The notes under the pieces: model-generated
Seen by the model: only the letters and a program-made list of their open reading frames with translations
What the model was told of the DNA's origin: nothing
Databases searched by the model: none
In this document: piece by piece, positions 10,882-29,841 of the stretch
How positions within the stretch are numbered: position 1 is the first letter of the stretch
Layout: the number at the start of each line of letters is the position of its first letter
DNA from: Chloroherpeton thalassium
GTDB lineage: Bacteria; Bacteroidota; Ignavibacteria; Kapaibacteriales; UBA2268
Reading direction: 5' to 3'
Length of the DNA stretch: 32,495 bases
Assembly (NCBI GenBank): GCA_020722095.1
Contig: DYLM01000010.1
Span: 12,733-45,227, forward strand
Translations under genes and position numbers: made by a program

Positions 10882-10921
10882 GTGTGTATAGAAATTTATT
10901 CGTGAGAGAGAGAAATCATAG

Positions 10922-11168
10922 AACCTTCCGAAGGTTTCTCATTCTTCAACCCCACGCTTAAGCGTGGGGTTGAAGGCTTTTTCCAATTATCTATATAGAG
11001 GCTGTCTCATAAGTCAGAGTTGCTGTCATTCCCACGAAAGTGGGAACCCATAGCCCACGAATTTATTCGTGGGAAAATGGATTCCCGTTTGCACGGGAAT
11101 GACAAACATACATTTTTCAAATTGAATGAGATTGCTTCGTCCCGATAAATCGGAACTCGCAAAGACGT
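10922..11168. repeat. Palindromic repeat island A
   Basis: AACCTTCCGAAGGTT (10922), 32-nt perfect palindrome (10944-10975), GGCTGTCTCATAAGTCAG (11000), triple-hairpin unit (11025-11103), GATTGCTTCGTC...CGCAAAGACG-type element (about 11129-11167). Confidence 0.85.
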
Positions 11169-11201
11169 CCAACATCTAACACCAAAACCTCATTTACAAA
11201 T

Positions 11202-12365
11202 TTATTTATAAGCTGGAATACCTGTGATGTCCTCGCCCAAAATTAGAGTGTGAATATCGTGAGTCCCTTCGTAAGTTTTAACTGATTCCAAATTAGCCGA
11301 ATGACGCATAACATTATATTCGTTCAGAATTCCATTTGCCCCATGAATTTCTCGTGCAATGCGAGCTGATTGCAATGCAATATCCACATTATTACGCTTG
11401 GCAAGTGAGACTTGCTGTGGAGTGGATTTATGCTCATCCATCAATCTTCCCAATCTTTCAACCAGAAGTTGTCCCTTGGTGATTTCGTTCAACATCCAAA
11501 CTAATTTTTCTTGAACTAATTGGAAGCCAGCAATCGGCTTGTCGAATTGCACGCGAGATTTAGCATAATTTAAGGCTGAATCATAAACAGCAGCAGCAGC
11601 GCCAACTGCACCCCAAGCAATACCATATCTCGCTTTGTTTAAACAACTTAAAGGACCGCGAAGCCCTTGGATGTCCAATTTGTTTTCTGTAGGAATTTCC
11701 ACATCTTGGAAAATTAATTCCGAAGTAATTGAAGCTCGCAATGAATGTTTACCTTTCATTTCGGGAGCAGAAAAGCCTTTCATACCTTTTTCGACAATAA
11801 AGCCGTGAACTTTTCCATTTAATTTTGCCCAAACAACTGCAATATCGGCGATAGTGCCATTAGTTATCCACATTTTAGCACCATTCAGCAAATATCCACC
11901 CGAAATCTCCTTTGCATTAGTTATCATTCCGCCTGGGTTAGAACCAAAATCGGGTTCGGTAAGCCCAAAGCAGCCAATAGTTTCGCCGGTTGCTAACTTG
12001 GGCAACCATTTTTTCTTTAAGTATTCGCTACCATATTCATTGATAGGGAACATTACGAGTGAATTCTGAACCGAAGCAAATGAACGAACACCTGAATCTC
12101 CTCGCTCAAGTTCCATCATTCCAATTCCATACATTGTGTAAGTCGCACCAGCGCCGCCGTATTCAGCCGGAATTGTGACGCCGAATAAACCCATTTCCGC
12201 CATTTTGGGAATTAAGTCCATTGGAAATTTACCTTGCATATAGTAATCTTCAATGATTGGAAGAACTTCGTTGTCAGTAAAATCTCTAACTGATTGTTGG
12301 AATAGTTTCTCTTCATCCGAAAAAGTATCGAATATTTTATAGTAATCTGGGAAGTTGAAAGCCAT
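11202..12365 (-). CDS. gcdH: Acyl-CoA dehydrogenase, glutaryl-CoA dehydrogenase-like
   Basis: FGLTEPDFGSNPGG, GAKMWITNG and TYEGTHDIHTLILGEDITGIPAYK motifs. The ORF track extends to 12530 and overlaps nusA; the ATG at 12365 (MAFNFPDYYKIFDTF) is the likely start. Confidence 0.88.
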   Translation of the reverse strand: MAFNFPDYYKIFDTFSDEEKLFQQSVRDFTDNEVLPIIEDYYMQGKFPMDLIPKMAEMGLFGVTIPAEYGGAGATYTMYGIGMMELERGDSGVRSFASVQNSLVMFPINEYGSEYLKKKWLPKLATGETIGCFGLTEPDFGSNPGGMITNAKEISGGYLLNGAKMWITNGTIADIAVVWAKLNGKVHGFIVEKGMKGFSAPEMKGKHSLRASITSELIFQDVEIPTENKLDIQGLRGPLSCLNKARYGIAWGAVGAAAAVYDSALNYAKSRVQFDKPIAGFQLVQEKLVWMLNEITKGQLLVERLGRLMDEHKSTPQQVSLAKRNNVDIALQSARIAREIHGANGILNEYNVMRHSANLESVKTYEGTHDIHTLILGEDITGIPAYK

Positions 12366-12483
12366 TTTTATCCTATTAAAAAAAAAATTATTATAATAGT
12401 GATTAATGACGAAAAAATAGTTAATTTTGTGAAAGCAAGATGGGGCAAAAGCCCTTTTTTTTGTAAGATAATGGATTTTGAAT

Positions 12484-13800
12484 ATGTCAAGATTAAGAAA
12501 AAAACCTGAAATCAACAAGCAGTCAATCATAGAAGCCTTTGCAGAAATGGCAAAATATAAGGGAATTGACCGCGATTTATTGCAAGGAATTTTGGAAGAT
12601 ACGCTATCGCTACTTATTAGAAAAAAATACGGTAACGATGCGAACTTCGAAATTATCGTTAATATGGAAAAAGGCGATATTGAAATTTATTTGATGAAAA
12701 CAATCGTAGAGGAAGTTGAAGATTCAACAATTGAGATTTCATTAGAAGAAGCAAAAAAAATTAGTGAAGATGATTACGAATTAGGGGACGATTTTGTAAT
12801 TGAAATCTCGTTACAAAGTATTGGCGAGAATTTTGGAAGAAGATTGGTAAATCTTGCTACGCAATCATTAACTCAGAGAATAAAAGAAGTAGAAAAGAAC
12901 AATATCTATAATGAATACGCAGCAAAAATTGGTGAAGTTGTAATTGGCGAAATCTATCAAATAAGAAGAAACGATTTGCTTATTATGCATAATAAAATTG
13001 AGATGCATATGCCAAGAGAGCATCAAATACCAACAGAATCTATGCGATATAAGAAAAATCAAAATATAAAATCTGTTATCCACGAAGTTCGTAAGAACGG
13101 ACCAGCAGGATTGCCCGAAATAATATTATCCCGTGCAAATAATAAATTTTTAGAGAGATTATTTGAAATTGAAATTCCGGAAATTTACGATGGATTAATC
13201 CAAATAAGAGCAATTGCTCGCGATCCAGGTCGCCGCTCCAAAGTTGCAGTTCAATCATTTGACGATAGAGTGGATCCAGTAGGAGCTTGTGTAGGAATGA
13301 AAGGAGTGAGAATTCACTCAATTGTTCGCGAATTAAATAATGAAAACATAGATTTAATAGAGTATTCTGATGATATTGCTACATTTATTATGCGTGCATT
13401 GCAACCCGCACAAGTTAAGGAAATACAATTATTTCCCGAAACTTTATCGGCAAATATCTTTGTAACGGACGATCAAGTGCCATTAGCAATCGGAACAAAC
13501 GGACAGAATATAAGATTGGCATCATTATTAACTGGTTATAATTTAACCTTAATTAAAGAAGCAGTTGATGATATTGAAATTACAGAATTCGACCAAGAAA
13601 TTGGTGCAGAAATAATCGAAAAATTAGTAGCAAGTGGAATCAAGACAGCACGAGAATTTTTAAGAGCCGAACCAGAAGTATTAGTAGAAATTGAAGGTAT
13701 TAGTGCATCATTTATCAACGACATTCGCAGAATTATACTCGCAGAATTCGAAGAAGATGAAGATCCACATTACCAAGATAAATTAGAAAATATTAAGTAA
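12484..13800 (+). CDS. nusA: Transcription termination/antitermination protein NusA
   Basis: NusA N-terminal domain, S1 domain, KH domains (DPVGACVGMKGVRIHSIVREL; LAIGTNGQNIRLASLLTGYNL); followed by infB. ATG at 12484 preferred over TTG at 12478. Confidence 0.96.
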   Translation: MSRLRKKPEINKQSIIEAFAEMAKYKGIDRDLLQGILEDTLSLLIRKKYGNDANFEIIVNMEKGDIEIYLMKTIVEEVEDSTIEISLEEAKKISEDDYELGDDFVIEISLQSIGENFGRRLVNLATQSLTQRIKEVEKNNIYNEYAAKIGEVVIGEIYQIRRNDLLIMHNKIEMHMPREHQIPTESMRYKKNQNIKSVIHEVRKNGPAGLPEIILSRANNKFLERLFEIEIPEIYDGLIQIRAIARDPGRRSKVAVQSFDDRVDPVGACVGMKGVRIHSIVRELNNENIDLIEYSDDIATFIMRALQPAQVKEIQLFPETLSANIFVTDDQVPLAIGTNGQNIRLASLLTGYNLTLIKEAVDDIEITEFDQEIGAEIIEKLVASGIKTAREFLRAEPEVLVEIEGISASFINDIRRIILAEFEEDEDPHYQDKLENIK

Positions 13801-13849
13801 AAATATAATATTAAATAATAATATTAATTAAAAATATTAAAAAATAAGT

Positions 13850-16800
13850 ATGGCAGCAAATAATAAAATAAAAATTTTCAAGATTGCCTCGGAAATTAAT
13901 ATCGGAATTGGAGCAATAGTAGAATTTCTCCAGAACAAGGGTTACGATATCCAAAATAAGCCGACTTCAACCATCACCGAAGAGATGGCAAATTTGGTTT
14001 ATGATAAATTTAAAAGGGAAAAAATAGCTGCCGAAAAACAAAGAGAGAAATTAGAGAAACATCATATTCTTAGGAATACTCCTGAACACGACCATAAAAC
14101 TGAATCAAATGAAGAAGTTGCAGTCAAAGAAGTTGTGCCTGAAGTTCCAAAGCAAACCGAACCACCAAAACCAGTTGAACCAATTCAAGAAAAACCTACA
14201 TTGAAAATTCTCGACAAAATTGATTTAACTCGAGAACCAAAGCCAGAAGTAATTGACAAAAAGGAAGATAAACCTATTCAAGAGAAAAAAGCCGAACCAG
14301 AAGTTAAAATTATTGAAGCACAAACTAATGAAGTGAAACAAGAATCGGCTGAACCAAAACAAAAAGCAGAACCTGCACCGAAACAGGAAGTTACCAAACC
14401 TGAACCAACAGAAAGAAAGATTGAGCAAGTTAGCCAAGTTGAAGCAAAGCGGGAAGGAAAAAAGCCAAAAGATGAAAATTTAAAACAACATAAAACAGAG
14501 AAAGGACCAGAACATAAAAAGCAAGATAATTCAAACAAACAAAGTCCGAAAGCTACAGAAGATACACCAAGTTCAGAGGTAAAACCAACTGATAAGAACC
14601 GCGAAACTGGTGAGAAGCATAAAAAGAAGCACAAGAAAATTGCTGAAGAAGTTATTACGGCTTCACCAAAATTACAAGGCTTGACTATTCTTGGTAAAAT
14701 TGATTTAGAAAAACCAAAACCACACAGAAGTGACGATAGAGGAAATAGAGGAAGAGGTCCAGGAACTGATAACCGTGGAGATAATCGCGGGCGTGATGAT
14801 AGTGGTGCAAGTGGTGGCAGAAGACGTGAAGACAATCGTGGAGGTTATCAAAGACGTGAAGACAATCGAAGTGGTACTCCAAGACAAGACGATGGTCGCA
14901 GCGGAGGATATGTTAGACGTGATGATAATAGAACCGATAGCAGACCACAAGGTGAAAGAAGAGACGATAGAAATACAAGCGGAAACTTTCGTTCAAATGA
15001 AAACAGACCTGCTGCTGAAGGTGGCAATTATCGCTCCAGTGGAGATAATAGATTTGCCAATCGTGCAAGAACATCGGGTTTTATTCGCCCAGCAGACCCA
15101 ATTATCGATACTAATACTTCTAAATTAAATAAAGACGTTAAGTTTAAAAAGACTTCAACAGAAGAAGAAACAACAAAAGTAATTGCAAGAGTAAAGCCAA
15201 AGGAAAAATCAAAAAGCAAAGAAGACAAGCAAGTTAAAAAGCACAAAAAACTTATTCGCGAGCAAATTAGCTCGTTAGATATAGACAAAGCAGTTCGCGA
15301 AACTATGGCTGAAATTGATCTACAGCACTCCACAGGTGGCTCACGTTCCAAAATCAAGCAAAAGAAGAAAATGGAGCGAGAAGAAAGAGATACTATCAGA
15401 CAAAGAGTTGAAGATGAAATGGCTAATGTGCTGGAACTTACAGAGTTTGTTACAACAGGCGAATTAGCTAAGGCTATGAATATATTGCCAAATCAAATAA
15501 TTGTTAAATGTATGCAACTTGGTTTAATGGTAACTATTAACCAAAGATTGGACAAAGACACAATAGCCTTGATTGCAGAAGATTTTGGATACTCAGTCAA
15601 TTTCTATAATGAACAAGAATCTTTGGAAATAGAGGAAGAAGTAGATACCGAAGAATCATTAGAGTTCCGTCCTCCAATAGTAACAATAATGGGGCACGTT
15701 GATCATGGAAAAACATCATTACTTGATTATATCCGTAGTTCAAATGTAGTTGCGGGCGAAGCAGGCGGGATCACACAACATATTGGTGCTTACCAAGTGG
15801 AATTAGATAATGGCAAGATGATTACTTTCCTCGATACACCTGGTCACGCTGCATTTACAGCAATGCGTGCTCGTGGTGCCCAAGTAACAGATATAGTAAT
15901 CTTGGTAGTTGCTGCTGACGATAGTGTGATGCCTCAAACAATTGAAGCAATAAGCCACGCCAAAGCTGCAGGTGTTCCAATTATTGTTGCAATCAATAAA
16001 ATTGACAAACCTGATGCAAACCCAGATAGAATCAAACAACAATTATCCGATCATGGAATTTTAATTGAGGAATGGGGCGGAAAATACCAAAGTATTGAAA
16101 TATCCGCAAAATTTGGAAAAAATATAGATGTTCTGTTAGATAAAGTTTTAATTGAAGCGGAATTATTGAATTTAAGAGCCAATCCAAACAAGAAAGCTCG
16201 TGGAACTGTAATTGAAGCTGTAATGAAAAAAGGTTTCGGACCAGTAGCAACTGTAATTATTCAAGGTGGAACGCTTAAAATTGGCGATCCATTCGTAGCT
16301 GGAACTGCTTCTGGTAGAGTAAAAGCAATGCTTGATGAACGCGAGAAGAGAGTAGATTTAGCAGAACCTGCATCACCAGTTTTGGTTGTTGGATTTGATA
16401 CTTTGCCCGAAGCTGGAGATAATTTCACTGTATTGAATACTGATATGGAAGCACGCCAGGTTGCTAAAGAACGTGATATATTAAAACGTGAGCTTTCGCT
16501 CCGACAAATTAGAAAAATCTCACTTGATGACATTTCTCAAAAGATTCACGAAGGCAATGTGAAGGAATTGAAATTAATCCTTAAAGGTGATGTTGCTGGT
16601 TCAGTAGAAGCATTAGGTGAATCTTTATTGAAATTGAGCAATGAAGAAGTGAGAGTATTGATTATCCACAAGGGAGTTGGTACAATTTTGGAAACAGATG
16701 TTATATTAGCTTCTGCGTCCGAAGCAGTAATCGTAGGCTTTAATGTGCCAGTTGATGTTAATGCACGCAAATTAGCAGATGTAGAAAAAGTAGATATTCG

Positions 16801-17176
16801 TAATTATAATATCATTTATGATTGTATAAATGAAGTTCACATGGCTTTGGAAGGTTTATTATCGCCTGAATATCACGAAGAAACTACAGCAATGCTCGAA
16901 GTAAGAAGAACATTCAAAATATCAAGAATGGGAACAATTGCTGGTTGTTATGTGCAGAATGGCAAAATATCCAAGAACGATAAAGTCAAAGTAATAAGAG
17001 ATGGTCTGATTTTACATACAGGAACACTTTCATCCTTGAAACGTGAAAAAGATGATGTAAAAGAAGTTGATGCTGGATTTGAGTGTGGTGTTATGATTAA
17101 TAACTTCAACTCACTTGAAGTTGGCGACCATATAGAAAGTTTCAAAATTATTGAAGTTAAACGTAAATTGTCGTAA
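13850..17176 (+). CDS. infB: Translation initiation factor IF-2 with long low-complexity N-terminal extension
   Basis: GTPase motifs GHVDHGKTS, DTPGHAAF, NKID; 1108 aa; Arg/Gly/Asp-rich tract. Confidence 0.98.
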   Translation: MAANNKIKIFKIASEINIGIGAIVEFLQNKGYDIQNKPTSTITEEMANLVYDKFKREKIAAEKQREKLEKHHILRNTPEHDHKTESNEEVAVKEVVPEVPKQTEPPKPVEPIQEKPTLKILDKIDLTREPKPEVIDKKEDKPIQEKKAEPEVKIIEAQTNEVKQESAEPKQKAEPAPKQEVTKPEPTERKIEQVSQVEAKREGKKPKDENLKQHKTEKGPEHKKQDNSNKQSPKATEDTPSSEVKPTDKNRETGEKHKKKHKKIAEEVITASPKLQGLTILGKIDLEKPKPHRSDDRGNRGRGPGTDNRGDNRGRDDSGASGGRRREDNRGGYQRREDNRSGTPRQDDGRSGGYVRRDDNRTDSRPQGERRDDRNTSGNFRSNENRPAAEGGNYRSSGDNRFANRARTSGFIRPADPIIDTNTSKLNKDVKFKKTSTEEETTKVIARVKPKEKSKSKEDKQVKKHKKLIREQISSLDIDKAVRETMAEIDLQHSTGGSRSKIKQKKKMEREERDTIRQRVEDEMANVLELTEFVTTGELAKAMNILPNQIIVKCMQLGLMVTINQRLDKDTIALIAEDFGYSVNFYNEQESLEIEEEVDTEESLEFRPPIVTIMGHVDHGKTSLLDYIRSSNVVAGEAGGITQHIGAYQVELDNGKMITFLDTPGHAAFTAMRARGAQVTDIVILVVAADDSVMPQTIEAISHAKAAGVPIIVAINKIDKPDANPDRIKQQLSDHGILIEEWGGKYQSIEISAKFGKNIDVLLDKVLIEAELLNLRANPNKKARGTVIEAVMKKGFGPVATVIIQGGTLKIGDPFVAGTASGRVKAMLDEREKRVDLAEPASPVLVVGFDTLPEAGDNFTVLNTDMEARQVAKERDILKRELSLRQIRKISLDDISQKIHEGNVKELKLILKGDVAGSVEALGESLLKLSNEEVRVLIIHKGVGTILETDVILASASEAVIVGFNVPVDVNARKLADVEKVDIRNYNIIYDCINEVHMALEGLLSPEYHEETTAMLEVRRTFKISRMGTIAGCYVQNGKISKNDKVKVIRDGLILHTGTLSSLKREKDDVKEVDAGFECGVMINNFNSLEVGDHIESFKIIEVKRKLS

Positions 17177-17517
17177 TGCAAACATTTAGAACTGAAAGAT
17201 TATCCAAAGAAATAAAAAAGATTCTGTCGGAAAGAATTTCCTTTTTAGGACAAGATATTGGTGGCGGATTGGTAAGCATCACTACCGTGCGAATCTCTAA
17301 GGATTTATCTTTAGCAAGGATTTATATAAGTGCGTTTGCTACAAAACTTACACCTTTAGAAGTGATTGCTTATTTAGATGAAAATAAAGCAATTTATCGC
17401 ACAGATTTAGCAAAAAAAATGAGAACGAGAATTGTTCCTAATCTCAAATTTTTCTTAGATGACACTCTCGACGAAATAGAAAATATTCAAAAATTGATTG
17501 ATTCTGTTAAGGAATAA
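17176..17517 (+). CDS. rbfA: 30S ribosome-binding factor A
   Basis: 113 aa; size, RbfA-like sequence and position; TAATG overlap with infB. Confidence 0.92.
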   Translation: MQTFRTERLSKEIKKILSERISFLGQDIGGGLVSITTVRISKDLSLARIYISAFATKLTPLEVIAYLDENKAIYRTDLAKKMRTRIVPNLKFFLDDTLDEIENIQKLIDSVKE

Positions 17518-17530
17518 TCTCCAAAAATAA

Positions 17531-18259
17531 ATGAATATTCTCACAAAATCTAATCTAAACAATTTCTCAAATTGGTTTGACGAAATGCAAAATTCTGGTG
17601 GCTTATTGTTAGTAAATAAGCCACTTGGATACACATCGTTTGCAATCATTAACTCATTAAAAAGAATATTCAAAGGAAAAAAAATCGGTCATAGTGGCAC
17701 TCTCGACCCATTAGCAAGTGGCTTGATGATAATTGCAATTGGCAAAGCAACAAAATTGCTCAATGACTTAATTCTTAACACGAAAATATATAGCGGATTG
17801 ATTAAAATTGGAGTTGAAACAGCCTCGCTCGACAAAGAAACACCAGAAGTGAATCATACCCAAATTCCTGAGAACATTGAGACCAAAATATTGGAAACAC
17901 TCCCCTATTTTGCTGGCGATATGGAACAAGTTCCTCCTTTGCATAGTGCATTAAAAGTTGATGGAAAAAGGGCTTATAAACTTGCCAGAAAAAATCTTGA
18001 GCAGTCTATCGCTCCAAGAAAAATAACGATACTTGATTATAAAATTTTAGATATTGATATTCCTTATGTTAAATTCAGAATCAATGTTACAAGTGGCTTT
18101 TATGTAAGGACATTTGCACAGGATTTTGGGAAATTTATAGGATTGCCCGCATACCTTTATAAATTACATCGCGAACAAATTGGTGAATTTTCTATCGAAG
18201 AAGCAGTTTCCGTTGAAGAAATACAGAAGAAATTATCTTATTTACAAACAGATAACTAA
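17531..18259 (+). CDS. truB: tRNA pseudouridine-55 synthase TruB
   Basis: LLLVNKPLGYTSF...GHSGTLDPLASGLMIIAIGKATK motif. Confidence 0.96.
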   Translation: MNILTKSNLNNFSNWFDEMQNSGGLLLVNKPLGYTSFAIINSLKRIFKGKKIGHSGTLDPLASGLMIIAIGKATKLLNDLILNTKIYSGLIKIGVETASLDKETPEVNHTQIPENIETKILETLPYFAGDMEQVPPLHSALKVDGKRAYKLARKNLEQSIAPRKITILDYKILDIDIPYVKFRINVTSGFYVRTFAQDFGKFIGLPAYLYKLHREQIGEFSIEEAVSVEEIQKKLSYLQTDN

Positions 18260-18978
18260 TTTTGCTCTATTTCAACTTGTGATTCGATTTTCTCAATTTC
18301 ATCATTTGATAAATCAAGAGTCATCATATCATCTGCTTGACTTTCGAACTCTTGCTTAACCATTTCCTCAAACTCGGATAATTCTGGCAAATCGCTAATT
18401 GTATTCAAACCAAATATTCTCAAAAAATCATCGGTAGTGCTGTACATTATTGGTCTGCCAAGCACATTTTTTCTTCCTGCAATTTTTATTAAACCTCGTT
18501 CGAGAATAGAATTTACCACTTCGTTTGAATTTACACCTCTGATTATCTCAATTTCGGGTTTTGTGATTGGTTGTTTATATGCAATTATTGCCAAAACTTC
18601 CAAAGCCGCATTGGAAAGTCTGCGATTTATTTTGGTCTTATAATAAGTACGAACATATTGACCATATTCTTTCCGAGTAGCAAATTGCCAGCCACCAGCA
18701 ATTTGGATTATTTTATACGGACGATTTGTTTCGAGCAATTGAGTGTTAATATCGAAAATTAATTTTTCTAAAGTTTTTAATTTATCGTCCAATAAATCTT
18801 GTTCGGCTTTTTGGTTTATTTCTGCGTTTTCTTCTTCTGTGATTGTGTTTTTCTTTTCATCAATCAATAAATTGAGTAAAGTTTCGGTATTTATGGGTTC
18901 GTCTGCTGCAAACAAAATGCTTTCAACAATTTTCATTTGCAACTGATAATCTAATGAAAAAAATATATTTGTATTCAA
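18256..18978 (-). CDS. scpB: Segregation and condensation protein ScpB
   Basis: SNAALEVLAIIAYKQPITKPEIEIIRGVNSNEVVNSILERGLI winged-helix motif; downstream of scpA. Confidence 0.95.
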   Translation of the reverse strand: MNTNIFFSLDYQLQMKIVESILFAADEPINTETLLNLLIDEKKNTITEEENAEINQKAEQDLLDDKLKTLEKLIFDINTQLLETNRPYKIIQIAGGWQFATRKEYGQYVRTYYKTKINRRLSNAALEVLAIIAYKQPITKPEIEIIRGVNSNEVVNSILERGLIKIAGRKNVLGRPIMYSTTDDFLRIFGLNTISDLPELSEFEEMVKQEFESQADDMMTLDLSNDEIEKIESQVEIEQN

Positions 18979-18988
18979 TTTTACTTTC

Positions 18989-19717
18989 CTAATTTAAATT
19001 TAATTTTAATGAAATTATAATATCATCTGATTGATTTTCTTGAAATAATGAAATTTGATTATTTCTTGCTAATTCTAATATTGCTAAAAATGTTACAATA
19101 ATTTCAATTCGTGAAAACTCATTTACATATTTGATAAAACTTATTCGAGATTTTGTATTTAATTTATTTAAAATATCTTTTTTCTTGTCGTCAACTGAAA
19201 TTGGGAACAAATTTACTTGATGGAATTTTTCATCAACAATATTTTTCCTTTTCAAAATTGTATTTATTGCATTTATCAAAGCAAATATGGACGAATTCTT
19301 ATAATCTGCATTTTGCTCAAAATTCTGAATTTCCGCATCATAATTTTTACGATAAAAATGATTTTTATTATCTTCTGCTTTCCGCATTAAATCTAACGAG
19401 GCTTCCTTAAATTTCTTATATTCAATCAATTGCTCTACCAATGGCAGACGCGGATCTTCCATCCCTTCCAATAATTCATCGTTTTCATCATCAGTTCGGA
19501 GCAACATTTCTGCTTTGATTTGCAATAAAGTAGCCGCCATTAAGATAAATTCCGAGGCAACTTCTAAATCTAATTGATTAAGCAATTTAATATAATCCAA
19601 AAACTCTTCTGTAATTTTGGAGATTGGAATATCATAAATATCAAGTTCATCTCGCTTGATGAAGTATAATAACAAATCGAACGGACCTTCGAAATCCTTT
19701 AATTTTAACTTAAACAT
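18989..19717 (-). CDS. scpA: Segregation and condensation protein ScpA
   Basis: LKDFEGPFDLLLYFIKRDELDIYDIPISKITEEFLDYI motif; 242 aa. Confidence 0.95.
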   Translation of the reverse strand: MFKLKLKDFEGPFDLLLYFIKRDELDIYDIPISKITEEFLDYIKLLNQLDLEVASEFILMAATLLQIKAEMLLRTDDENDELLEGMEDPRLPLVEQLIEYKKFKEASLDLMRKAEDNKNHFYRKNYDAEIQNFEQNADYKNSSIFALINAINTILKRKNIVDEKFHQVNLFPISVDDKKKDILNKLNTKSRISFIKYVNEFSRIEIIVTFLAILELARNNQISLFQENQSDDIIISLKLNLN

Positions 19718-20825
19718 TGCCCTCTGTAAAAAATCGTGGAACTCGCTTTAATATTGAAGTTGTAATATTATATGGAATTGTATTTGCTCTATCCGCCAAC
19801 TCATAAACTGAAATTTCCTCGTTGCCTTGCTTGCCAATCAACACAACTTGTTCGCCTTCGTCAATATTATCATTGCCAATATCAGCAAATAATTGATCCA
19901 TACAAATTGAACCAACTAAATCATAACGCTTGCCTTTAATCAAACATTGTGCATTATTTGTTAAGTTAAGAACAATTCCATCACCATAACCAATTGGCAA
20001 CACAGCAATTTTGGTAGGTTTGTCTGCAGTAAATTTCAAGCTATAACCTGCGGTTTCGCCCGAATTTACCGAAAATATCTTTTTTATGAATGTTTTTAAC
20101 GACAAGACAGGCTTTAAATCAAGTTTGTCAGCCAAATGTTTTTGGGGCATCAATCCATAAATTGCAAAACCCGGGCGAACAATATCAAAAATTGCATTAG
20201 GCAAATTCACAATGCCAGCAGAATTGGATATGTGGCGATATTTGAAATGCAAATTATGGCTTTCTGCATAGTCCAAAAATTGCTTGAAATTATTGATTTG
20301 AAATTGTGCAAATGTTTTATCATCCATATCAGAAGTGGCAAAGTGGCTACAAATACCCTCGAACTCGATATTTTTATAACTTTCTAAATTTGGTACAAGA
20401 TGCTTATACTCATCAAAGTTAATTCCATCGCGATTCATACCTGTATTTACATATAAGTGAGCTTTAATTTTTGCGTGTCGTTTGCGAGCAATTTCATTAA
20501 TTTCATTAATATAATGGATATGCCCGATTGTAATATCCAAATTATTATCAATAACATCGGTAATTTCTTCCACTTCGGGGGGAATTAAAAGCAAGATTTT
20601 CCGAGTCTCCCCAATATTCCTTAATTCAATACCTTCAGATGGATATGCAATGCCAAGCATATCAATTTTGGGATGATTTAGATTTTTTGCAATTCCAATC
20701 ATACCGTGACCATAAGCATTTGCCTTGATAACTGGCATTATATTGGCACTACCTATTGAATCAGCTATTTTTTGAATATTATTATTCAAATTTTTAAGAT
20801 TTATTTCGATAAAGGTGTTTCGCAT
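19710..20825 (-). CDS. alr: Alanine racemase
   Basis: PLP motif MPVIKANAYGHGM; PIGYGDG and SICMDQLFADIG motifs. Internal ATG at 20825 (MRNTFIEINLKNL) likely start; 8-bp overlap with scpA. Confidence 0.94.
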   Translation of the reverse strand: MRNTFIEINLKNLNNNIQKIADSIGSANIMPVIKANAYGHGMIGIAKNLNHPKIDMLGIAYPSEGIELRNIGETRKILLLIPPEVEEITDVIDNNLDITIGHIHYINEINEIARKRHAKIKAHLYVNTGMNRDGINFDEYKHLVPNLESYKNIEFEGICSHFATSDMDDKTFAQFQINNFKQFLDYAESHNLHFKYRHISNSAGIVNLPNAIFDIVRPGFAIYGLMPQKHLADKLDLKPVLSLKTFIKKIFSVNSGETAGYSLKFTADKPTKIAVLPIGYGDGIVLNLTNNAQCLIKGKRYDLVGSICMDQLFADIGNDNIDEGEQVVLIGKQGNEEISVYELADRANTIPYNITTSILKRVPRFFTEGNV

Positions 20826-20908
20826 ACTAATTATTGTTGAAAAATAACCGATAATAAAATTGAGATATATCAAAAAGCAAAATTATTAAGAAATTTGGTG
20901 TTAGAACA

Positions 20909-22642
20909 ATGAAATTTTCCACATATACAAAAATTATAGTTTTAATGAGTCTTTTTGTCATTGGTTGCTCCGCTCCTAAACCTTGTGGTAAAAAAGCAAA
21001 GGCTTTCGGCAATTTAGATGGAGTATTTAATACTAAATACAATGAATATTCCCCCGCATTTCATAATAATAAATTGTATTTTTCGATGATGCCTATTGGT
21101 AAAAATAAAACCAGTAAAGTTTATTATTCAAATATCAAAGACTCTGGCTTTACTTTTCCAAAGGAAGCATTAGATTTGCCTTTGAAAAAAGTAAAAAAAT
21201 ATGGAACGATTAACTTCGCAAAATATGGCAATAACGAGGAACTTTTCTTTGCTGGAAGCAATCCTAAAAGCAAGTCTGCTAATTCGAATATTTATTATTC
21301 GAAAAAATCTAATAAAAAATGGAGCGACCCAATTGCTCTAAACACAATAAATACAAATTATTACGAGTCCTATCCAACTATTTCCAAAGATGGAAAGATG
21401 ATGATATTTTCTTCGGACCGACCAGACGGCAATGGCGGAATTGACTTGTATTATTCAAAAAGAATTGGCGATAGCACTTGGAGCGAGCCAATAAATCTTG
21501 GAAATAAAATAAATACAGATAAAAACGAAATTTCTGCATTTTTAGACGAACATAATAATTTGCTTTTTGCATCAAAGGGGCATAATGCTCTTGGTGGTTA
21601 TGATGTATTTCGAGCAAATTATTTGGGGAATGAATCTTGGGCTGAACCAATACAAATGCCTTTCCCAATCAATACTGAATTTGACGAAACTGGTCCGGCA
21701 ATTTATGATGAAAACATATACTTGGCTTCAAACCGCAAGGACGGATGTGGAGCTCGAGACTTATACTTTTTCCAATTATGTAGCGATGTACAACTTGCAG
21801 GAACTATTTCTGATAAAGATAATTCTGTGTATCCGAATGGTTTTGTAAGAATTTATGATGAAAATAGAAATTTGGTAGATTCAATTATTATCAATGATGA
21901 TGGAGAATTTCAGATAAATTTGAAGGGAAATAAAAAATATTATGTTGATTATATCAATGAATGTTCTCCACTTTTTGTTCCCGAAACGGAAATTATAACT
22001 CCTTGCAATAGTGAGAACTTTGTAAAAATGAATTTGACAATATCTTTACCTTATGAACCCCAAAATTATGATTTGGGTAATTACAAAATCCCATTTTTTA
22101 TTAGTGGATATTATAAACCAATAACAAGAGAAAACATCAGAGATTTGCGATACTTATTTGATATGAATTTGATTGGGTTGGCTGACAGCACAAAATATAT
22201 TGAATATCCAACAAATGAATATGACGAATATTCAGATGTGGTAGAAGATGCTTTTAATCAAATTACAAATAAAATAAAAGAATTAGTTAGTTCATCAAAT
22301 AGCAAATGCACTAAACCAATCAAAAAGCAAATTTATATTGATATTACTGGTTATGCTGATGCACGAGGTTTCTCGGATATTGCTAAATATGCGGGCGAAG
22401 AAATTAGCGATGAATTATTGCCCTATGAAATTTATCCAGGAATGAAGATGGATAATGAATTGCTGTCAATTTTGCGGGCATATTTTGTGCAACAATATCT
22501 ACTGAAAGAAATTAAGAAAATTCCTAATTCGCAATCAATTCTCAATTCAATTGAATGGCAAATTAATGCTGGTGGTGCAATTAAATCCTCGGAAGATTAT
22601 GTTATGGAGAGAAAAGTAAGCATAAAATTTGGTATAAAATAG
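20909..22642 (+). CDS. Lipoprotein with PD40/WD40-like propeller, carboxypeptidase-regulatory-like domain and divergent OmpA-like C-terminus (PorE-like architecture)
   Basis: Lipobox VIGCSAP; SYPTISKDGKMMIFSSDRPDGNGGIDLYYSKR repeats; LAGTISDKDNSVYPNGFVRIYDENRNLVDSIIINDDGEF; C-terminal IDITGYADARG...ERKVSIKFGI. Confidence 0.75.
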   Translation: MKFSTYTKIIVLMSLFVIGCSAPKPCGKKAKAFGNLDGVFNTKYNEYSPAFHNNKLYFSMMPIGKNKTSKVYYSNIKDSGFTFPKEALDLPLKKVKKYGTINFAKYGNNEELFFAGSNPKSKSANSNIYYSKKSNKKWSDPIALNTINTNYYESYPTISKDGKMMIFSSDRPDGNGGIDLYYSKRIGDSTWSEPINLGNKINTDKNEISAFLDEHNNLLFASKGHNALGGYDVFRANYLGNESWAEPIQMPFPINTEFDETGPAIYDENIYLASNRKDGCGARDLYFFQLCSDVQLAGTISDKDNSVYPNGFVRIYDENRNLVDSIIINDDGEFQINLKGNKKYYVDYINECSPLFVPETEIITPCNSENFVKMNLTISLPYEPQNYDLGNYKIPFFISGYYKPITRENIRDLRYLFDMNLIGLADSTKYIEYPTNEYDEYSDVVEDAFNQITNKIKELVSSSNSKCTKPIKKQIYIDITGYADARGFSDIAKYAGEEISDELLPYEIYPGMKMDNELLSILRAYFVQQYLLKEIKKIPNSQSILNSIEWQINAGGAIKSSEDYVMERKVSIKFGIK

Positions 22643-22681
22643 CCAATAATCAAAAATTTCACAAAAAAATTAACTTTTTGC

Positions 22682-22705
22682 AACTAATTAGTTTTTTCAA
22701 TCGTA
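22682..22705 (+). promoter_or_regulatory. Possible ECF-sigma-type promoter upstream of the outer-membrane protein gene
   Basis: TTTTTGCAAC - 17 nt - CGTA, about 28 nt before the ATG at 22733. Confidence 0.35.
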
Positions 22706-22732
22706 ATATTAGTTAAATTAAAAATTAATATT

Positions 22733-23500
22733 ATGAAAACATTTACTTTACTTACTGTTGCTTTGTTGATGCCAATATTTCTGTTTGCTCAAAAAGGAAC
22801 CACAAGTGCGAATAACGAGCAAAATTCAACAGAAACTGACCGAGTTGAATATTTGAAGAATTTACCATTAAAAGGGTTCTTTGGATTTAACTTTGCCAAT
22901 TCTGTTCCACAAAATCAATTTATGGATGACTTAAAAAAATCAGGTCCTGGTTTTGGGTTAGTTGGTGGTTATAAATTTGAACCAATACCAATTGCAATTG
23001 GCGGACGAGTTGATTTCCATTTTTTTGGATACGAAACAAGGTATATTGATAATTCATTAGATGGTTGGTCATTTTGGCAAGATACATTAGAAACCTCCAA
23101 TAGTTCAATTCCAATTGATATGTTTGTCCGAATCGAACCAAACTTGTTCAATACTGTATTCCCATATATTGAAGGTGGTGTTGGGTTTACAGTGATGAGT
23201 GCAACAGCAAGTTATACTTCGCATTATTGGGGAGATGCCAAAGACAAAGATGAGTTCTCTGCATATATTAATTATTATGTGGGAGTAGGAACTAATATCA
23301 AGTTAGTAGATTTTGTGCAGATGCCAAATAGCAATACTCGAATGCTTTTAGATGTTAGTTTTAGATATTTATCGGGAGATAAAACTAAATATTACACAGT
23401 CAAACCCGACCCAAATAATGAGCGTTCAGTTATATTTGATAAGTATGAAGCAATTCCCGACCAAATTTTATTCAACTTGGGACTAACATTTCAATTTTAA
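22733..23500 (+). CDS. Putative outer-membrane beta-barrel protein
   Basis: Signal peptide MKTFTLLTVALLMPIFLFAQ; alternating strands; aromatic C-terminus LFNLGLTFQF. Confidence 0.7.
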   Translation: MKTFTLLTVALLMPIFLFAQKGTTSANNEQNSTETDRVEYLKNLPLKGFFGFNFANSVPQNQFMDDLKKSGPGFGLVGGYKFEPIPIAIGGRVDFHFFGYETRYIDNSLDGWSFWQDTLETSNSSIPIDMFVRIEPNLFNTVFPYIEGGVGFTVMSATASYTSHYWGDAKDKDEFSAYINYYVGVGTNIKLVDFVQMPNSNTRMLLDVSFRYLSGDKTKYYTVKPDPNNERSVIFDKYEAIPDQILFNLGLTFQF

Positions 23501-23546
23501 TAATCAATAATTTAAATAGAAAATAATAAATAAAAGGAGATAAATT

Positions 23547-23960
23547 ATGAAAAGATTTTTTGTAGCAGCAACTTTACTTATTGCTGTAATAGCATTGGCT
23601 TCATCTTGCACAACTGTAAACGGAAACTATAAATCAAGTTCTAATGATTATAGCAATGACCTAACAGTCGGTAAAGTGCAGAAAGAGATTCGCAAAGGAA
23701 TGAGTGGCTCGGAAGTTATCGAATCGCTTGGCAGTCCACAAATTATTACTGCTGACGAACAGGGGTTGGAAACTTGGGTTTATGATAAAATTGCAACTGA
23801 AGTTAGTTATTCCAAAAGCAACGATGTTTTGTTTTTATTGGTGTATGCTAAATCCAACACAGAAGCAAGTTATTCACAAACACAAAGAACTTTAACAGTT
23901 ATTGTTAAATTGCGTGATAGTAAAGTGGAAAGTTTTTCTTATCATGCAAGTAAATTCTAA
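23547..23960 (+). CDS. Lipoprotein with SmpA/OmlA (BamE)-like fold
   Basis: Lipobox ALASSC; VQKEIRKGMSGSEVIESLGSPQIITADEQGLETWVYDK resembles the SmpA/OmlA motif. Confidence 0.65.
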   Translation: MKRFFVAATLLIAVIALASSCTTVNGNYKSSSNDYSNDLTVGKVQKEIRKGMSGSEVIESLGSPQIITADEQGLETWVYDKIATEVSYSKSNDVLFLLVYAKSNTEASYSQTQRTLTVIVKLRDSKVESFSYHASKF

Positions 23961-23971
23961 ATGAGTAAAAT

Positions 23972-24565
23972 ATGAAAGCAAAAATCCTGATATTCTCAAT
24001 AATTATCGCTATTGGAATGTCTGCGTGCACCGTGGTGAACTATCAGCAGAATAAACCTGCTTATCAAGAAACACAATTAGAAGTACGCGAATTCCAAACA
24101 AGAATGTTTGATACAAATGATACTAAATTGATTATGAAAGCATTGGTAAATGTGTTGCAGGACGATAATTATATTATCACAAATGCAGTTACTGATCTTG
24201 GTGTATTGATGGCTAAAAAGGAAATTGATTTGAACTCATCACGCACCCAAAATACTACCAGCCGTGATATTGATAATCAATTTTGGTTAGAATTTTTCGA
24301 AGCAATTGCAGCCCAAGATAATCATAGAAATAAGAGAACTTATAATAATCAGCCACAACCTTACAAGAAAACCAAGTTAGTGGAAGTATCAATCAATGTT
24401 ACTGAATATGGCAAACAGAGCAAGGTAAGAGCAAACTTCCAAGCAAAAGTTCTCGATAATCAAGGCAATGTAGTGGAAGTATATCCACTGAAAGACGGCA
24501 AATTTTATCAAGACTTTTTTGCCAAAGTTGATAAATCAATCTATTTACAAAAGAATGGATTGTAG
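23972..24565 (+). CDS. Putative lipoprotein of unknown function
   Basis: Signal peptide with lipobox GMSAC; co-directional with the preceding lipoprotein gene, 11-nt gap. Confidence 0.65.
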   Translation: MKAKILIFSIIIAIGMSACTVVNYQQNKPAYQETQLEVREFQTRMFDTNDTKLIMKALVNVLQDDNYIITNAVTDLGVLMAKKEIDLNSSRTQNTTSRDIDNQFWLEFFEAIAAQDNHRNKRTYNNQPQPYKKTKLVEVSINVTEYGKQSKVRANFQAKVLDNQGNVVEVYPLKDGKFYQDFFAKVDKSIYLQKNGL

Positions 24566-24627
24566 AAATTTGTAATTTTTCCAAAACAACCTTCCGAAAG
24601 TTTTTGATTATTAAATAATATGTAATC

Positions 24628-24656
24628 AATCCCCAGCGAAAGCAGGGATTTTTTTT
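24628..24656 (+). terminator. Rho-independent terminator after the lipoprotein pair
   Basis: AATCCC-CA-GC-GAAA-GC-A-GGGATT followed by a T-run. Confidence 0.75.
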
Positions 24657-24747
24657 GTGATAATATGTTTGAAAACAAAAAGTAGCATCACGCTTAACAA
24701 ATGAGTATTACCTTACAGATAAAAATAAAGTTACAAAACAATCATGT

Positions 24748-25081
24748 GGCTGTCTCATAAGTCCAACATATTCCAAAATTGTCATTCCCGTGCAAACGGA
24801 AATCCATAGCCCACGAATTTATTCGAGGGTGCATTTTAAAATGAACGGATCAGGGCAGTGCAAACTCTGCCAAAGAAAAAGCGAGAAATAAACCTTCCGA
24901 AGGTTCGGAAACCTTCGGAAGGTTATATAATCAAAATATACAATGAAATGGGGGAATTGGTTTTATCAGATGTGGCACATCTCGCAGATGTGGCACATCT
25001 GGACTAATAAATATTATTTATAATAATAAAAAAGAGGTTTATAAAGAAAGATGTAGCCAATTTTTGAGATGGACTCCATCT
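24748..25081. repeat. Palindromic repeat island B
   Basis: GGCTGTCTCATAAGTC (24748), GTCATTCCCG (24781), CCCACGAATTTATTCGAGGG (24810), AACCTTCCGAAGGTT/AACCTTCGGAAGGTT (24891-24924), two CAGATGTGGCACATCT copies (24967, 24985), AGATGGACTCCATCT (25067). Confidence 0.85.
24840..25007 (+). pseudogene. Candidate decayed T9SS sorting-domain fragment
   Basis: My reading of this frame gives ...YIIKIYNEMGELVLSDVAHLADVAHLD-stop, resembling VVAIYDVTGNKVLS in the CTD of the 6515-10825 protein. Stop at 24837 upstream, no ATG-initiated full ORF. Confidence 0.5.
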
Positions 25082-25099
25082 ATAATTGTAAACCTACAA

Positions 25100-25134
25100 A
25101 AAAAATCCAACACTTTAAAGATGTTGGACTTTTT
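25100..25134 (-). terminator. Terminator downstream of gcvT
   Basis: TCCAACA (25106-25112) / TGTTGGA (25122-25128) stem flanked by A and T runs. Confidence 0.7.
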
Positions 25135-25181
25135 AATAATATTAATTAAGATTATTGATTAATAATACTAATTAGGAATTT

Positions 25182-26273
25182 CTAAACTACAAATGGCAAC
25201 TTGGCTACTTTTGCTTTGAATCGCTTGCCACGAGCCTCAATTTCAATATCTGAACCAACTTTGGAGAATGCTGTTTCCACATAACCCATTCCAATTGGTT
25301 GATTTAATGTAGGAGAGATATTTCCACTTGTTACGTATCCAATTTTGTTGCCTTCTGGTGAATAAATTTCATAATGATGGCGAGGAATAAATTTATCTGC
25401 ATTGCTAATAAATCCAACTAATTTACGAGTTGCTCCTTTTTCTTTCATTTCTGCAATTGGTGCTTTCCCAATAAATTCACCTTTATTGATTTTGGTTATC
25501 CAACCCAAACTTGCTTCGATTGGATTAGTTGTTTGGTCAATATCATTACCATACAAACAGTAGCCTTTTTCGAGGCGTAAAGTATCGCGAGCACCTAATC
25601 CGATAGGTTCGATTCCAAATTCTGCACCTGCTTCAAAAATTGCATTCCACATTTTAGCTGCAACTTCTTCGTCGCCTTTAAAGTAAATTTCAAAGCCCAA
25701 TTCGCCCGTATAACCAGTGCGAGAAATAATTGCATCAAATCCAGCCATCTTACCGAATGTAAAATGGTAGTATTCAATTGCAGACATATCTGTTTCAGTC
25801 AACTTTTGCAATGTTTTTAGCGAGTCTGGACCTTGCACAGCCAATAAATTGAAGTCATCACTTGCATCTGTAAGTTGAACATCAAAATTGCCTTTATTTG
25901 CATTAACCCAAGCCCAATCTTTATCAATATTAGCACCATTAACGACTAACATAATATAATCGCCAATATTATAAACAAGCATATCATCAACCAAACCGCC
26001 TTCATTATAAGGCAGTGCTGAATATTGTGCTTGACCAATCGCTAATTTGCTTGCATCATTAACCGATATATGCTGAACAAATGCAAGAGCATCTTTGCCA
26101 CGAACTTCAAATTCGCCCATGTGCGATACATCAAACACGCCAACTTGCTTGCGAACTACTAAATGTTCGTGAATAATTCCTTGTGGGTATTGAATTGGCA
26201 TCTCAAAGCCAGCAAATTCAACCATTTTAGCTTTCAATTCTTTATGAATTGAATGAAAACGAGTTACTTTCAT
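25182..26273 (-). CDS. gcvT: Glycine cleavage system T protein (aminomethyltransferase)
   Basis: VGVFDVSHMGEFEVRG, SRTGYTGELGFEIY and GLGARDTLRLEKGYCLYGND motifs. Confidence 0.95.
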   Translation of the reverse strand: MKVTRFHSIHKELKAKMVEFAGFEMPIQYPQGIIHEHLVVRKQVGVFDVSHMGEFEVRGKDALAFVQHISVNDASKLAIGQAQYSALPYNEGGLVDDMLVYNIGDYIMLVVNGANIDKDWAWVNANKGNFDVQLTDASDDFNLLAVQGPDSLKTLQKLTETDMSAIEYYHFTFGKMAGFDAIISRTGYTGELGFEIYFKGDEEVAAKMWNAIFEAGAEFGIEPIGLGARDTLRLEKGYCLYGNDIDQTTNPIEASLGWITKINKGEFIGKAPIAEMKEKGATRKLVGFISNADKFIPRHHYEIYSPEGNKIGYVTSGNISPTLNQPIGMGYVETAFSKVGSDIEIEARGKRFKAKVAKLPFVV

Positions 26274-26296
26274 ATATTTTACCTTTTATAAAAAAA

Positions 26297-28381
26297 TTAT
26301 TTTTTCTTTGTGTATTTATCTAAAAATTTAATTACTAAATCTTGCCAAATAATATATTCTTGTGGATGAGAAATAAAGTGAGTTTCGTTAGGGAAATAAA
26401 TCAATTCGGCAGGAATATCTTGCAAACGAGCAGCCGAAAATGCTTCCAAACCTTGTGTGTAAGGAACGCGGAAATCTCTTTCGCCAATTGAAATTAATAT
26501 TGGTTTATTCCAGTTCTTCACAAAATTATGTGGTGAATTTCTTTCCATATTATCACGGTTTGCTTGCTCCCAATATGGTCCGCCAAATTCCCAATTAGGG
26601 AAGAAAGTTTCTTCGGTTGCACCATATTTACTTACAACATCAAATACACCATTATGAGCAACAAATGCATTAAATCTGCCTTCGTGATGACCCGCTAACC
26701 AATATGCTGCATATCCTCCAGCACTTGCACCCAAAGCAGAGCGACCTTCTAAATCCACGAATGGTTCAGTACTGAATTGGTCTGTTGCTGCAAGTATATC
26801 TGACATCGCCATTCCACCCCAGTCCAAACTAATTGCATCATTCCAAGCTTGACCAAATCCAGGCAAACCACGGCGATTTGCTGCTAAAATGATATAACCA
26901 TTTGCAGCATAAATTCCGAAGTTCCAACGATAATGATAGTTTTGGCTTATCATACTTTGTGGACCACCTTGCAAATATGTAATGACAGGATATTTCTTGG
27001 TTTTATCAAAATCTGGTGGGTAAATTATCCAACTATGGATTTTCTTCCCATCGGTGGCTGTGAACCATCTTTGTTCCCATTTGCAAGGGTTGATATATTT
27101 AACTCTTTCATCGTTAAATCTTGTTAATTTTGTCTCTTTGCCATCTTTTAGATTGATTACATAATAATCTAATGGATTATTAAAGTTATTTTTGCCTGTA
27201 ACTAATTGTTTACCATCTTTGGAAACTGCCAATCCGTGTCCATAATCCCAATCACCTTTGGACAATTTTTTGTACAATTTTGTTGCAATATCAAATTCAA
27301 ATAAACTTGTAACTCCAGAATCAGTAGAAATAGTGTAAATCTTGTCTGATTTCGGTCCCCAAGTAAATTCCTCACTCCATTGATCTAAATTTGTAGTTAA
27401 TTCATCAAATTTATTTTCCTTAATATTATAAAGCATTATGCGAATTTTATCAGATTCAAATCCAGCACGCTCCTGACTTGAAAATGCAATATATTTGCCA
27501 TCAGGGGAATATAATGGATTTTTGTCATATCCCATCATCCCTTTTGTCAAATTTGTTGTGTGGTATTTTCCATTTTTAATGTCAATTAAATCAACCAAAT
27601 ATAAATCGGAATTTGTATTTGTCACAAAATCGCTATCTTTTTTGGCAGTATAAATAATTTGTTTGGAATCGGGCGACCAAGTAATTTCCGATACGCCACC
27701 AAAAGGCTTCAATGGCACATCAACCAATTCTTTTGGCATTAAATCGATTGCTTTTCCACCATCAATTGGCATCACAAACAAATGGCTGAAAGATTCATCA
27801 GTCCATTCGTCCCAGTGGCGAATAGGCAATTCAGTATAATGCTTCAAATTTGCTTTGTCATATTCGGGATAATCTTCCAAAATGTTCTTTTGCAATTTCA
27901 CATCGCTTGTGTAGGAAATATATTTTCCATCGGGCGACCATAAAATATTGCTTACACCATTTTCTACATCAGTTAACTTTTTAGGAGAGCCTTGTGGAAA
28001 ATCTTGAATGTAAATTTGTGGGGCGCCATTTTCAGTTGATAGATAGGCAATTTTCTTGCCACAAGGTGAGAAAACAGGCGACATTTCATTGCCTTCGGCA
28101 TTTGTAACTTGATGAGTAAATTTACCATCAATGGAAGTAGCCCATATATCGCGAGTTATCTTATTATCTTCAATAGATGGAGTTGCAACTACAAACACAA
28201 TCCATTTGCCATCGGGAGATAATTGCATTTCCGAGAGACGTTTCATTGAATAAAGATCGGTTGTAGTTAAATTGTGCATTTTTTTTACAATATTCTCGCC
28301 CTTGCCTTCCAATTTGTCAATTTCTTTGGAGCAACCAACAGCAAAAACTAAAAGAGTTATAAACAAAGCAATTCTTTTCAT
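26297..28381 (-). CDS. S9 family (prolyl oligopeptidase-like) peptidase lipoprotein
   Basis: Lipobox FAVGCSK; N-terminal propeller repeats (SPDGKYIAFSS); catalytic region GRSALGASAGGYAAYW and LISIGERDFRVPYTQ. Confidence 0.9.
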   Translation of the reverse strand: MKRIALFITLLVFAVGCSKEIDKLEGKGENIVKKMHNLTTTDLYSMKRLSEMQLSPDGKWIVFVVATPSIEDNKITRDIWATSIDGKFTHQVTNAEGNEMSPVFSPCGKKIAYLSTENGAPQIYIQDFPQGSPKKLTDVENGVSNILWSPDGKYISYTSDVKLQKNILEDYPEYDKANLKHYTELPIRHWDEWTDESFSHLFVMPIDGGKAIDLMPKELVDVPLKPFGGVSEITWSPDSKQIIYTAKKDSDFVTNTNSDLYLVDLIDIKNGKYHTTNLTKGMMGYDKNPLYSPDGKYIAFSSQERAGFESDKIRIMLYNIKENKFDELTTNLDQWSEEFTWGPKSDKIYTISTDSGVTSLFEFDIATKLYKKLSKGDWDYGHGLAVSKDGKQLVTGKNNFNNPLDYYVINLKDGKETKLTRFNDERVKYINPCKWEQRWFTATDGKKIHSWIIYPPDFDKTKKYPVITYLQGGPQSMISQNYHYRWNFGIYAANGYIILAANRRGLPGFGQAWNDAISLDWGGMAMSDILAATDQFSTEPFVDLEGRSALGASAGGYAAYWLAGHHEGRFNAFVAHNGVFDVVSKYGATEETFFPNWEFGGPYWEQANRDNMERNSPHNFVKNWNKPILISIGERDFRVPYTQGLEAFSAARLQDIPAELIYFPNETHFISHPQEYIIWQDLVIKFLDKYTKKK

Positions 28382-28574
28382 AATATACCTTTTTATAAAA
28401 AAACAAAATTAAGAATAAACAATTTACAATGTATAAAGAAAGGTAAATTAATTTGGGAATTGGGTGTTGGGTTTCGGGATTTATGTGCAGAGTATTGTGT
28501 ATAAAAATAGTCAATAAAGTTTCACATTTTGTAATTTTGCATTCTTTAATTATTATTAAATTCAAATTCTAACG

Positions 28575-29573
28575 ATGACGAACTTCTGGCAACATATTCG
28601 AAGACCAATTTATGCTCTTGCACCTATGGAAGATGTAACCGATACAGTTTTCCGCGAAATTGTTATGTCGATTTCGGACGATAGCCATTTGAATATGCTT
28701 TTTGCCGAATTCACTTCTGTTGATGGACTTTATCATCCAATTGGTAAGGATAAAGTATCGCACCGATTGAAAATTAATCCATCAGAAATGGAATTGATGA
28801 AGAAAAAGGGAGTAAAAATTGTTGCTCAAATTTGGGGAAACGACCCCGAAAAGTTCGTTTATGCAGCCAAACACATAACTGAAAATTATGAATATGACGG
28901 AATTGATATTAATATGGGATGCCCAATACGTAAGATTGTGCATCAAGTTGCTTGCTCTGAATTAATTAGATTTCCTGATTTGGCTCGAGAAATTATTCAA
29001 GCAACAAAGGAGGCAACTCATTTGCCCGTAAGCGTTAAAACCCGCACTGGAATCAAAGAACATCAAACTGAAAAATGGATAAGCAATGTTCTGCAAGCAA
29101 AACCAGATGCCATTACTTTACATTGCCGCACCCAAAAAATGCTGTCAGAAAAACCAGCTGACTGGGAGCAAATCAGCATTGCAGTTGATGTGAGAAATTC
29201 ACTTTCGCCCACAACTCCGTTAATTGGTAATGGTGATATTTTTACCATCGAAGATGCCGAAATGAAGATTGCCGAGTATAAACCCGATGGAGTTATGATT
29301 GGTCGTGGAATTTTCAAAAATGCTTGGATTTTTAATAGCCACAAAAAAGAAATAACAAAACAAGAAAGATTACAAACATTAATTAATCATACCGAATTAT
29401 TCCGTAAAACTTGGGAAAACCAAAAAAGCCATTCAATTCTAAAGAAATTCTATAAAATTTACCTCTCCGAATTTCCCGGTTCGGCTGAATTACGCTCAAA
29501 ATTGATGGCTGCGCCCACTCTTGATGAAGTATTGAGTATTGCATATAGCGAATTAAACTCTACCGAATTGTAG
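28575..29573 (+). CDS. dus: tRNA-dihydrouridine synthase family protein
   Basis: YALAPMEDVTDTVFRE, DGIDINMGCP, VSVKTRTGI and DGVMIGRGIFKNAWIF motifs. Confidence 0.9.
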   Translation: MTNFWQHIRRPIYALAPMEDVTDTVFREIVMSISDDSHLNMLFAEFTSVDGLYHPIGKDKVSHRLKINPSEMELMKKKGVKIVAQIWGNDPEKFVYAAKHITENYEYDGIDINMGCPIRKIVHQVACSELIRFPDLAREIIQATKEATHLPVSVKTRTGIKEHQTEKWISNVLQAKPDAITLHCRTQKMLSEKPADWEQISIAVDVRNSLSPTTPLIGNGDIFTIEDAEMKIAEYKPDGVMIGRGIFKNAWIFNSHKKEITKQERLQTLINHTELFRKTWENQKSHSILKKFYKIYLSEFPGSAELRSKLMAAPTLDEVLSIAYSELNSTEL

Positions 29574-29708
29574 AAGATTATTGTCTGCATTTTGTCTGTT
29601 AAATGCAATTCATAATTTTTAGGTTCGTCTAAATATAATATTAATCACTTGTTAATTTGAAAATTTGAAAATGTTGGGTGAATGTTGGGTGTTGGGAGAA
29701 TAACAAAG

Positions 29709-29841
29709 CCCACGAATTTATTCGTGGGTAAATATTAAAATGAATCTTCCGAAGGTTTCCAAACCTTCGGAAGGTTAAAAAGAAAATTTATTAGTGGCTG
29801 TCTCATAAGTCAGTTTTGCTTTTATCATATATGATACAGCC
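29709..29841. repeat. Palindromic repeat island C
   Basis: CCCACGAATTTATTCGTGGG (29709-29728), AATCTTCCGAAGGTTT/AAACCTTCGGAAGGTT (29743-29776), GGCTGTCTCATA...TATGATACAGCC (29796-29841). Confidence 0.85.

Follow-up and report, generated by a model that had tools for sequence, protein, structure and literature searches.

Mosaic MITE and REP-like repeats with IS1182-type TIRs at convergent gene junctions of Chloroherpeton thalassium

Why do three intergenic islands in a 32,495-nucleotide stretch of the Chloroherpeton thalassium genome (the window), each lying between convergent genes, share the same short modules? Islands were found at three of the four convergent pairs in the window (10825/11202, 18259/18256, 24565/25182, and 29573/29870), the fourth being TruB/ScpB (18259/18256) with its overlapping stop codons. 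Island 1 is flanked by genes for a Por-secreted SBBP/PKD protein (6515-10825) and an acyl-CoA dehydrogenase, island 2 by genes for an unassigned protein and GcvT, and island 3 by genes for a Dus protein and a DUF3467 protein. A sequence-only reading of the window had reported three modules that recur in these islands in differing order, and had tentatively taken them for REP/MITE-like elements either tolerated at 3'-3' junctions or selected there as bidirectional terminators or mRNA stabilizers. When the window was reread, every reported position was correct, and the module order does differ between islands. One of the modules, the TIR word GGCTGTCTCATAAGTC, occurs at 11000, 24748, and 29796; the others are the palindromes P1 (CCCACGAATTTATTCGTGGG) and P2 (the AACCTTCCGAAGGTT family). 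Rfam gave no matches at the gathering threshold in the window.

Island 1 contains a P2 palindrome (10922-10936), common to the congener G001 at the same place, followed by a P3 hairpin (TCTTCAACCCCACGCTTAAGCGTGGGGTTGAAGG) with its tail (10943-10996, + strand), which is missing at the orthologous place in G001. Next to these lies a MITE (10998-11105, + strand) with left TIR GAGGCTGTCTCATAAGTC and arms GTCATTCCCACGAAAGTGGGAA and TTCCCGTTTGCACGGGAATGAC, the right TIR of which has been lost; a P1 copy (11054-11073) sits within its variable center. A GAGATTGCTTCGTCCCGATAAATCGGAACTCGCAAAGACG repeat (11127-11166) is likewise missing at the G001 orthologous place, and stretches related to it adjoin other module copies in the genome. 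A scan placed an intrinsic terminator of the upstream + strand gene outside the modules (10845-10879, + strand; fold, -17.5 kcal/mol). Within that gene, window positions 7332 to 8583 are tandem coding repeats of ~192 bp (SBBP beta-propeller), and at the start of the window (1-68) TACTTCAGAAATTTTAATTTT is present as three 21-bp tandem copies.

Island 2 is a composite of ~265 bp (24746-25005, + strand) that aligns near-identically with a copy on another contig of the same genome (G000:C177, ~9055-9330), where a right-end TIR variant is still present. Its order is TIR, arm, P1, spacer, P2-P2 hairpin, spacer, and P4-P4 hairpin, with P1 carrying one change (24810-24829; ...TTCGAGGG), P2-P2 forming an inverted pair with a 15-bp stem (24891-24924), and the P4 pair consisting of AGATGTGGCACATCT twice (24968-25004). 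A further P2 with one change (24588-24602) lies between the stop of the + strand gene and the island. In island 3, P1 (29709-29728) is joined via the recurring spacer TAAATATTAAAATGAA to a P2-P2 inverted pair (29743-29776), and a 46-bp MITE remnant (29796-29841, + strand) retains the left TIR and a degraded right TIR, CATATATGATACAGCC; the left part of this remnant is the same in copies on contig C46.

The modules recur far beyond chance. Genome-wide, the TIR word has 136 matches at no more than one mismatch, versus 0 for a reversed-letter control, CCTTCCGAAGG has 84 versus 2 for its control, and P1 has 121 strand-hits at no more than two mismatches versus 0. The TIR word pairs head to head as the TIRs of a non-coding element of ~127 bp that is present in many copies and reads TIR, hairpin arm TGTCATTCCCACGAAAGTGGGAATCCA, variable center, hairpin arm TGGATTCCCGTTTGCACGGGAATGACA, TIR. 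This MITE is self-complementary (DNA fold versus shuffles, z = -8.8), and most of its copies are truncated or mosaic. P1 (CCCACGAA / CCCACGAATTTATTCGTGGG) often fills the variable center, island 1 being one case, and the joins on its two sides recur; P2, a second hairpin module, travels with the MITE mostly as an inverted pair. The same mosaic includes the further hairpins P3 (CCCCACGCTTAAGCGTGGGG; 10 copies in 1.05 Mb) and P4 (AGATGTGCCACATCT), plus a longer body. P1, P2-P2, P3, and P4-P4 are short extragenic palindromes arranged in inverted pairs and mosaics, a feature that they share with REP/BIME sequences. For each module, 68 to 80% of the copies have a TIR at most 400 bp away.

The IS1182-type MITE and the REP-like palindromes might be two unrelated families that share gaps only since both are excluded elsewhere. 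Such a shared exclusion would suit those copies of P1, P2, and P4 that have no recognized TIR within 400 bp, as well as the counts in G001, where P1 is much rarer relative to the TIR (7 P1 versus 60 TIR matches, compared with 62 versus 116 here), but exact junctions recur (CATAG-P1-AAAATGGATTCCCG, P1-TAAATATTAAAATGAA-P2, and P2-P2-CTGAAACAGATGAGGCTG). These junctions and the duplicated island 2 composite show that the modules move together, and we regard two unrelated families with a shared exclusion as distinctly unlikely. The modules are fragments of mobile elements, as opposed to signals in their own right.

Comparison with four congeners points the same way. The TIR is abundant in this genome, rarer in G001, and undetected in the other three. 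One gap (C116:56630) is empty here and occupied in the G001 orthologue; another (C166:65329) holds a canonical MITE in G001 and a longer mosaic here; and island 1 is partly common to the two genomes, with P3 and a repeat of ~70 bp present only here. Filled versus empty, or differently filled, orthologous sites show that insertion or replacement has taken place. G001 has lost the gene order around islands 2 and 3 seen here or never had it, so that neither is readable as an empty or filled site; the G001 gap after the GcvT orthologue contains modules, and the gap after the DUF3467 orthologue contains none. A search of loci in the other three congeners turned up no modules except for one weak match.

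A Belliella genome contains an 1,827-bp IS (locus L160, 1799-3625) bounded by GAGGCTGTCTCA, which is essentially the same TIR as that of the MITE, and its transposase passes the IS1182 model NF033551 with 334.7 bits against a cut-off of 270. Among the matches listed in an 18-base TIR scan of species genomes, most were from Bacteroidota and Chlorobiota, and, again among those listed, many contigs of these two groups carry TIR pairs ~110 to 270 bp apart; viral contigs had no TIR pairs at a spacing of 60 to 90 bp. In the draft genome studied here (222 contigs, 94.65% complete), no DDE_Tnp_1 or DDE_Tnp_1_6 match exceeded threshold, the IS1182 model returned only a weak sub-cut-off fragment at C144, and the Y1 (RAYT-type) transposase PF01797 had no matches. 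Because no Y1 transposase turned up, the family is not assigned to REP/RAYT; it is classed as a MITE on its TIRs, its copy number, and its differently filled sites. The earlier suggestion of REP/MITE-like elements tolerated at 3'-3' junctions is supported by a TIR-bounded MITE of 127 bp whose IS1182-type TIR is shared with the Belliella IS. In two other genomes, module words occur in same-strand series: G008:C139:88567-92022 (L246, L252, and L257) has three same-strand TIR words ~1.7 kb apart, resembling tandem ISs, in a genome with no IS1182 transposase match, and G022:C14:42110-44391 (L324 and L326), from another genus, has four exact same-strand copies of CCCACGAATTTATTCGTGGG in 2.3 kb in a genome with no TIR match.

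Orientation was analyzed in stretches of 35 contigs covering 1.05 of the 2.46 Mb of the draft (32% GC in the sampled part). The contigs were chosen among those that the module searches had named, with length as the main criterion for the initial 15 (713 kb), and absolute densities are for this reason not genome averages; the orientation comparison is made within the sample. Gene starts came from a simple hexamer-based caller, only the span of recognized modules was subtracted to obtain pre-insertion gap lengths, and some islands were missed because contigs often end in these repeats. Modules occupied 71 gaps, of which 34 were convergent (124 such gaps in the sample), 30 co-directional (594), and 7 divergent (131). 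The absence of modules from co-directional and divergent gaps, as noticed in the window by the sequence-only reading, thus does not extend to the genome, where about half of the occupied gaps (37/71) are of these kinds. Pre-insertion length predicts 11.6 convergent, 38.8 co-directional, and 20.7 divergent occupied gaps, and the length-based convergent expectation (11.6 to 14.6) is well short of the 34 observed (P = 2.5e-7 with full lengths; P = 6e-10 with the islands' own length removed). A spread over junction orientations in proportion to length had been named as counting against a junction preference; this holds by half, as copies are found at every kind of junction, yet their numbers do not simply follow length. 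The convergent bias is real and not exclusive. Restricting the analysis to the 713-kb set, or dropping the contig that holds the window, did not alter the results.

When the 150 bp upstream of gene starts were excluded, the expected numbers became 31.4, 33.4, and 6.3, against 34, 30, and 7 observed, and the excess was gone. The 150-bp cut is a post hoc pick from a short series and is in line with measured distances between modules and starts: the median distance from a module to the next start in co-directional gaps is 159 bp, versus 82 bp from the previous stop to the module (P = 0.005). Because this exclusion predicts the three gap classes closely, tolerance is sufficient to explain the bias, and the tolerance proposed earlier is backed as well by the empty or differently filled sites in the congener. 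With a 100-bp exclusion, a moderate convergent excess stays (34 versus 23.8 expected; P = 0.008), and it is the gaps containing palindrome modules that account for it. Besides tolerance, 3'-end function may make a smaller contribution.

The convergent enrichment could instead reflect the landing of insertions, if an IS1182-type element targeted hairpins such as terminators or REP-like palindromes, which would concentrate it at 3' ends. In other taxa, the flanks of 56 TIR pairs (L151-L230) are often A-rich on the left and T-rich on the right, and the two flanks of a MITE there continue to pair as inverted complements outside the TIR (209 matching positions versus 160.3 expected, P = 0.0002; P = 0.005 with one MITE per assembly); the Belliella IS itself is placed between TAAAAAAA and TTTTTTAT. 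These flanks suggest insertion into palindromes or terminators in other taxa. The same flank signal in the present genome, however, was 104 versus 96.4 expected (P = 0.19), and MITEs of other taxa had no convergent enrichment (12 observed versus 12.6 expected, from rough gene calls in mixed genomes). Hairpin targeting was accordingly set aside as an explanation for the bias seen here, the flank test in this genome being not significant, and a general convergent bias of IS1182-type MITEs was not seen in the other taxa with those gene calls. We consider targeted landing an unlikely explanation of the convergent enrichment.

Selection for 3'-end function was the other reading proposed earlier: mobility would spread the hairpin modules, and their activity as bidirectional terminators or mRNA 3'-end stabilizers would retain them at 3' ends. 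Several features are of the expected sort, among them strong hairpins with 15-bp stems, the P3 of island 1 and some P2-P2 copies that pass a loose terminator scan, and the residual convergent excess at the 100-bp exclusion in gaps with palindromes. Moreover, at least five T residues in the eight positions after the stem were found in 37% of P2-P2 cases, versus 18% in the background (P3, 25%). Against this, the T content after P1, single P2, P4, and the MITE arms is at, near, or below background, so that most hairpins have no T-tract above background; terminator-like sites are similarly frequent at convergent 3' ends with islands (37%) and without them (30%); and the loci examined in the other three congeners yielded no modules, the one weak match aside. 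Next to island 1 there is a clear, canonical terminator (10845-10879), which lies outside the modules and has a conserved stem, with a changed loop, in G001. Since the excess also vanishes once 5' regions are removed, selection as terminators or stabilizers is unsupported, and we hold it to be very unlikely as the reason for the islands. It is similarly doubtful, although conceivable, that a hairpin-preferring IS1182-type element targets the palindromic cores of its own relatives, which would lead to cassette exchange, with some mosaics (P2-P2 and P3) co-opted as bidirectional terminators.

Most probably, then, the islands are mosaic, nested, and mostly decayed MITE/REP-like mobile repeats that are kept where promoters are absent. 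Their core is a non-autonomous MITE of ~127 bp with IS1182-type TIRs, the center of which is filled by interchangeable palindromic cassettes, and the hairpin modules travel with it or were inserted beside it. A trans-acting IS1182-family (DDE) transposase, since lost from this genome or unassembled in it, probably spread these elements. Insertions and rearrangements would persist chiefly where they spare promoters and 5' leaders, probably through purifying selection behind the observed avoidance of starts, and convergent gaps would accumulate islands because they have no 5' flank. A gap once occupied would stay a safe target for further nesting, which may be accompanied by exchange of cassettes between the variable centers seen in the copies.

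A literature search found no description of this mosaic MITE family, which is specific to its lineage and belongs to a genus that is little characterized and probably related to Chlorobiota. The repeats are of a kind already familiar in bacteria, here in a new, lineage-specific instance, with no new regulatory signal demonstrated. It also serves as a worked control, in that a convergent-junction bias need not mean 3'-end function when a start exclusion of ~150 bp reproduces it; signs that IS1182-type MITEs lie inside palindromic targets across taxa are a side result open to testing. Like known IS1182-derived MITEs, the element is short, non-coding, TIR-bounded, and multicopy, with a TIR resembling that of an autonomous IS, here from Belliella. 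It differs from them in that no autonomous partner was found in this draft genome, no direct target-site duplication was recognized by eye in the MITE flanks, the center is replaced by diverse palindromic cassettes, and the copies are mostly truncated or mosaic. The modules resemble REP/BIME sequences as extragenic palindromes of 20 to 40 bp in inverted pairs and mosaics, and differ from them in being tied to DDE-type TIRs in a genome with no Y1 (RAYT-type) transposase over threshold. REPs are reported to occupy chiefly the gaps that separate unidirectional or convergent ORFs, on the downstream side of coding regions, and their palindromes have a GTAG or CGTC tag at one end (PMC3733652). In Neisseria, large mosaic intergenic regions interleave members of different repeat families (PMC3733652); compared by description only, the present islands likewise interleave repeat families between genes, but their boundary TIR is IS1182-type. 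Finally, a large survey found convergent (->IS<-) contexts to be overrepresented for several IS families, including IS1182 (PMC9208149). The elements at those junctions are full insertion sequences, whereas those described here are non-coding miniature derivatives.
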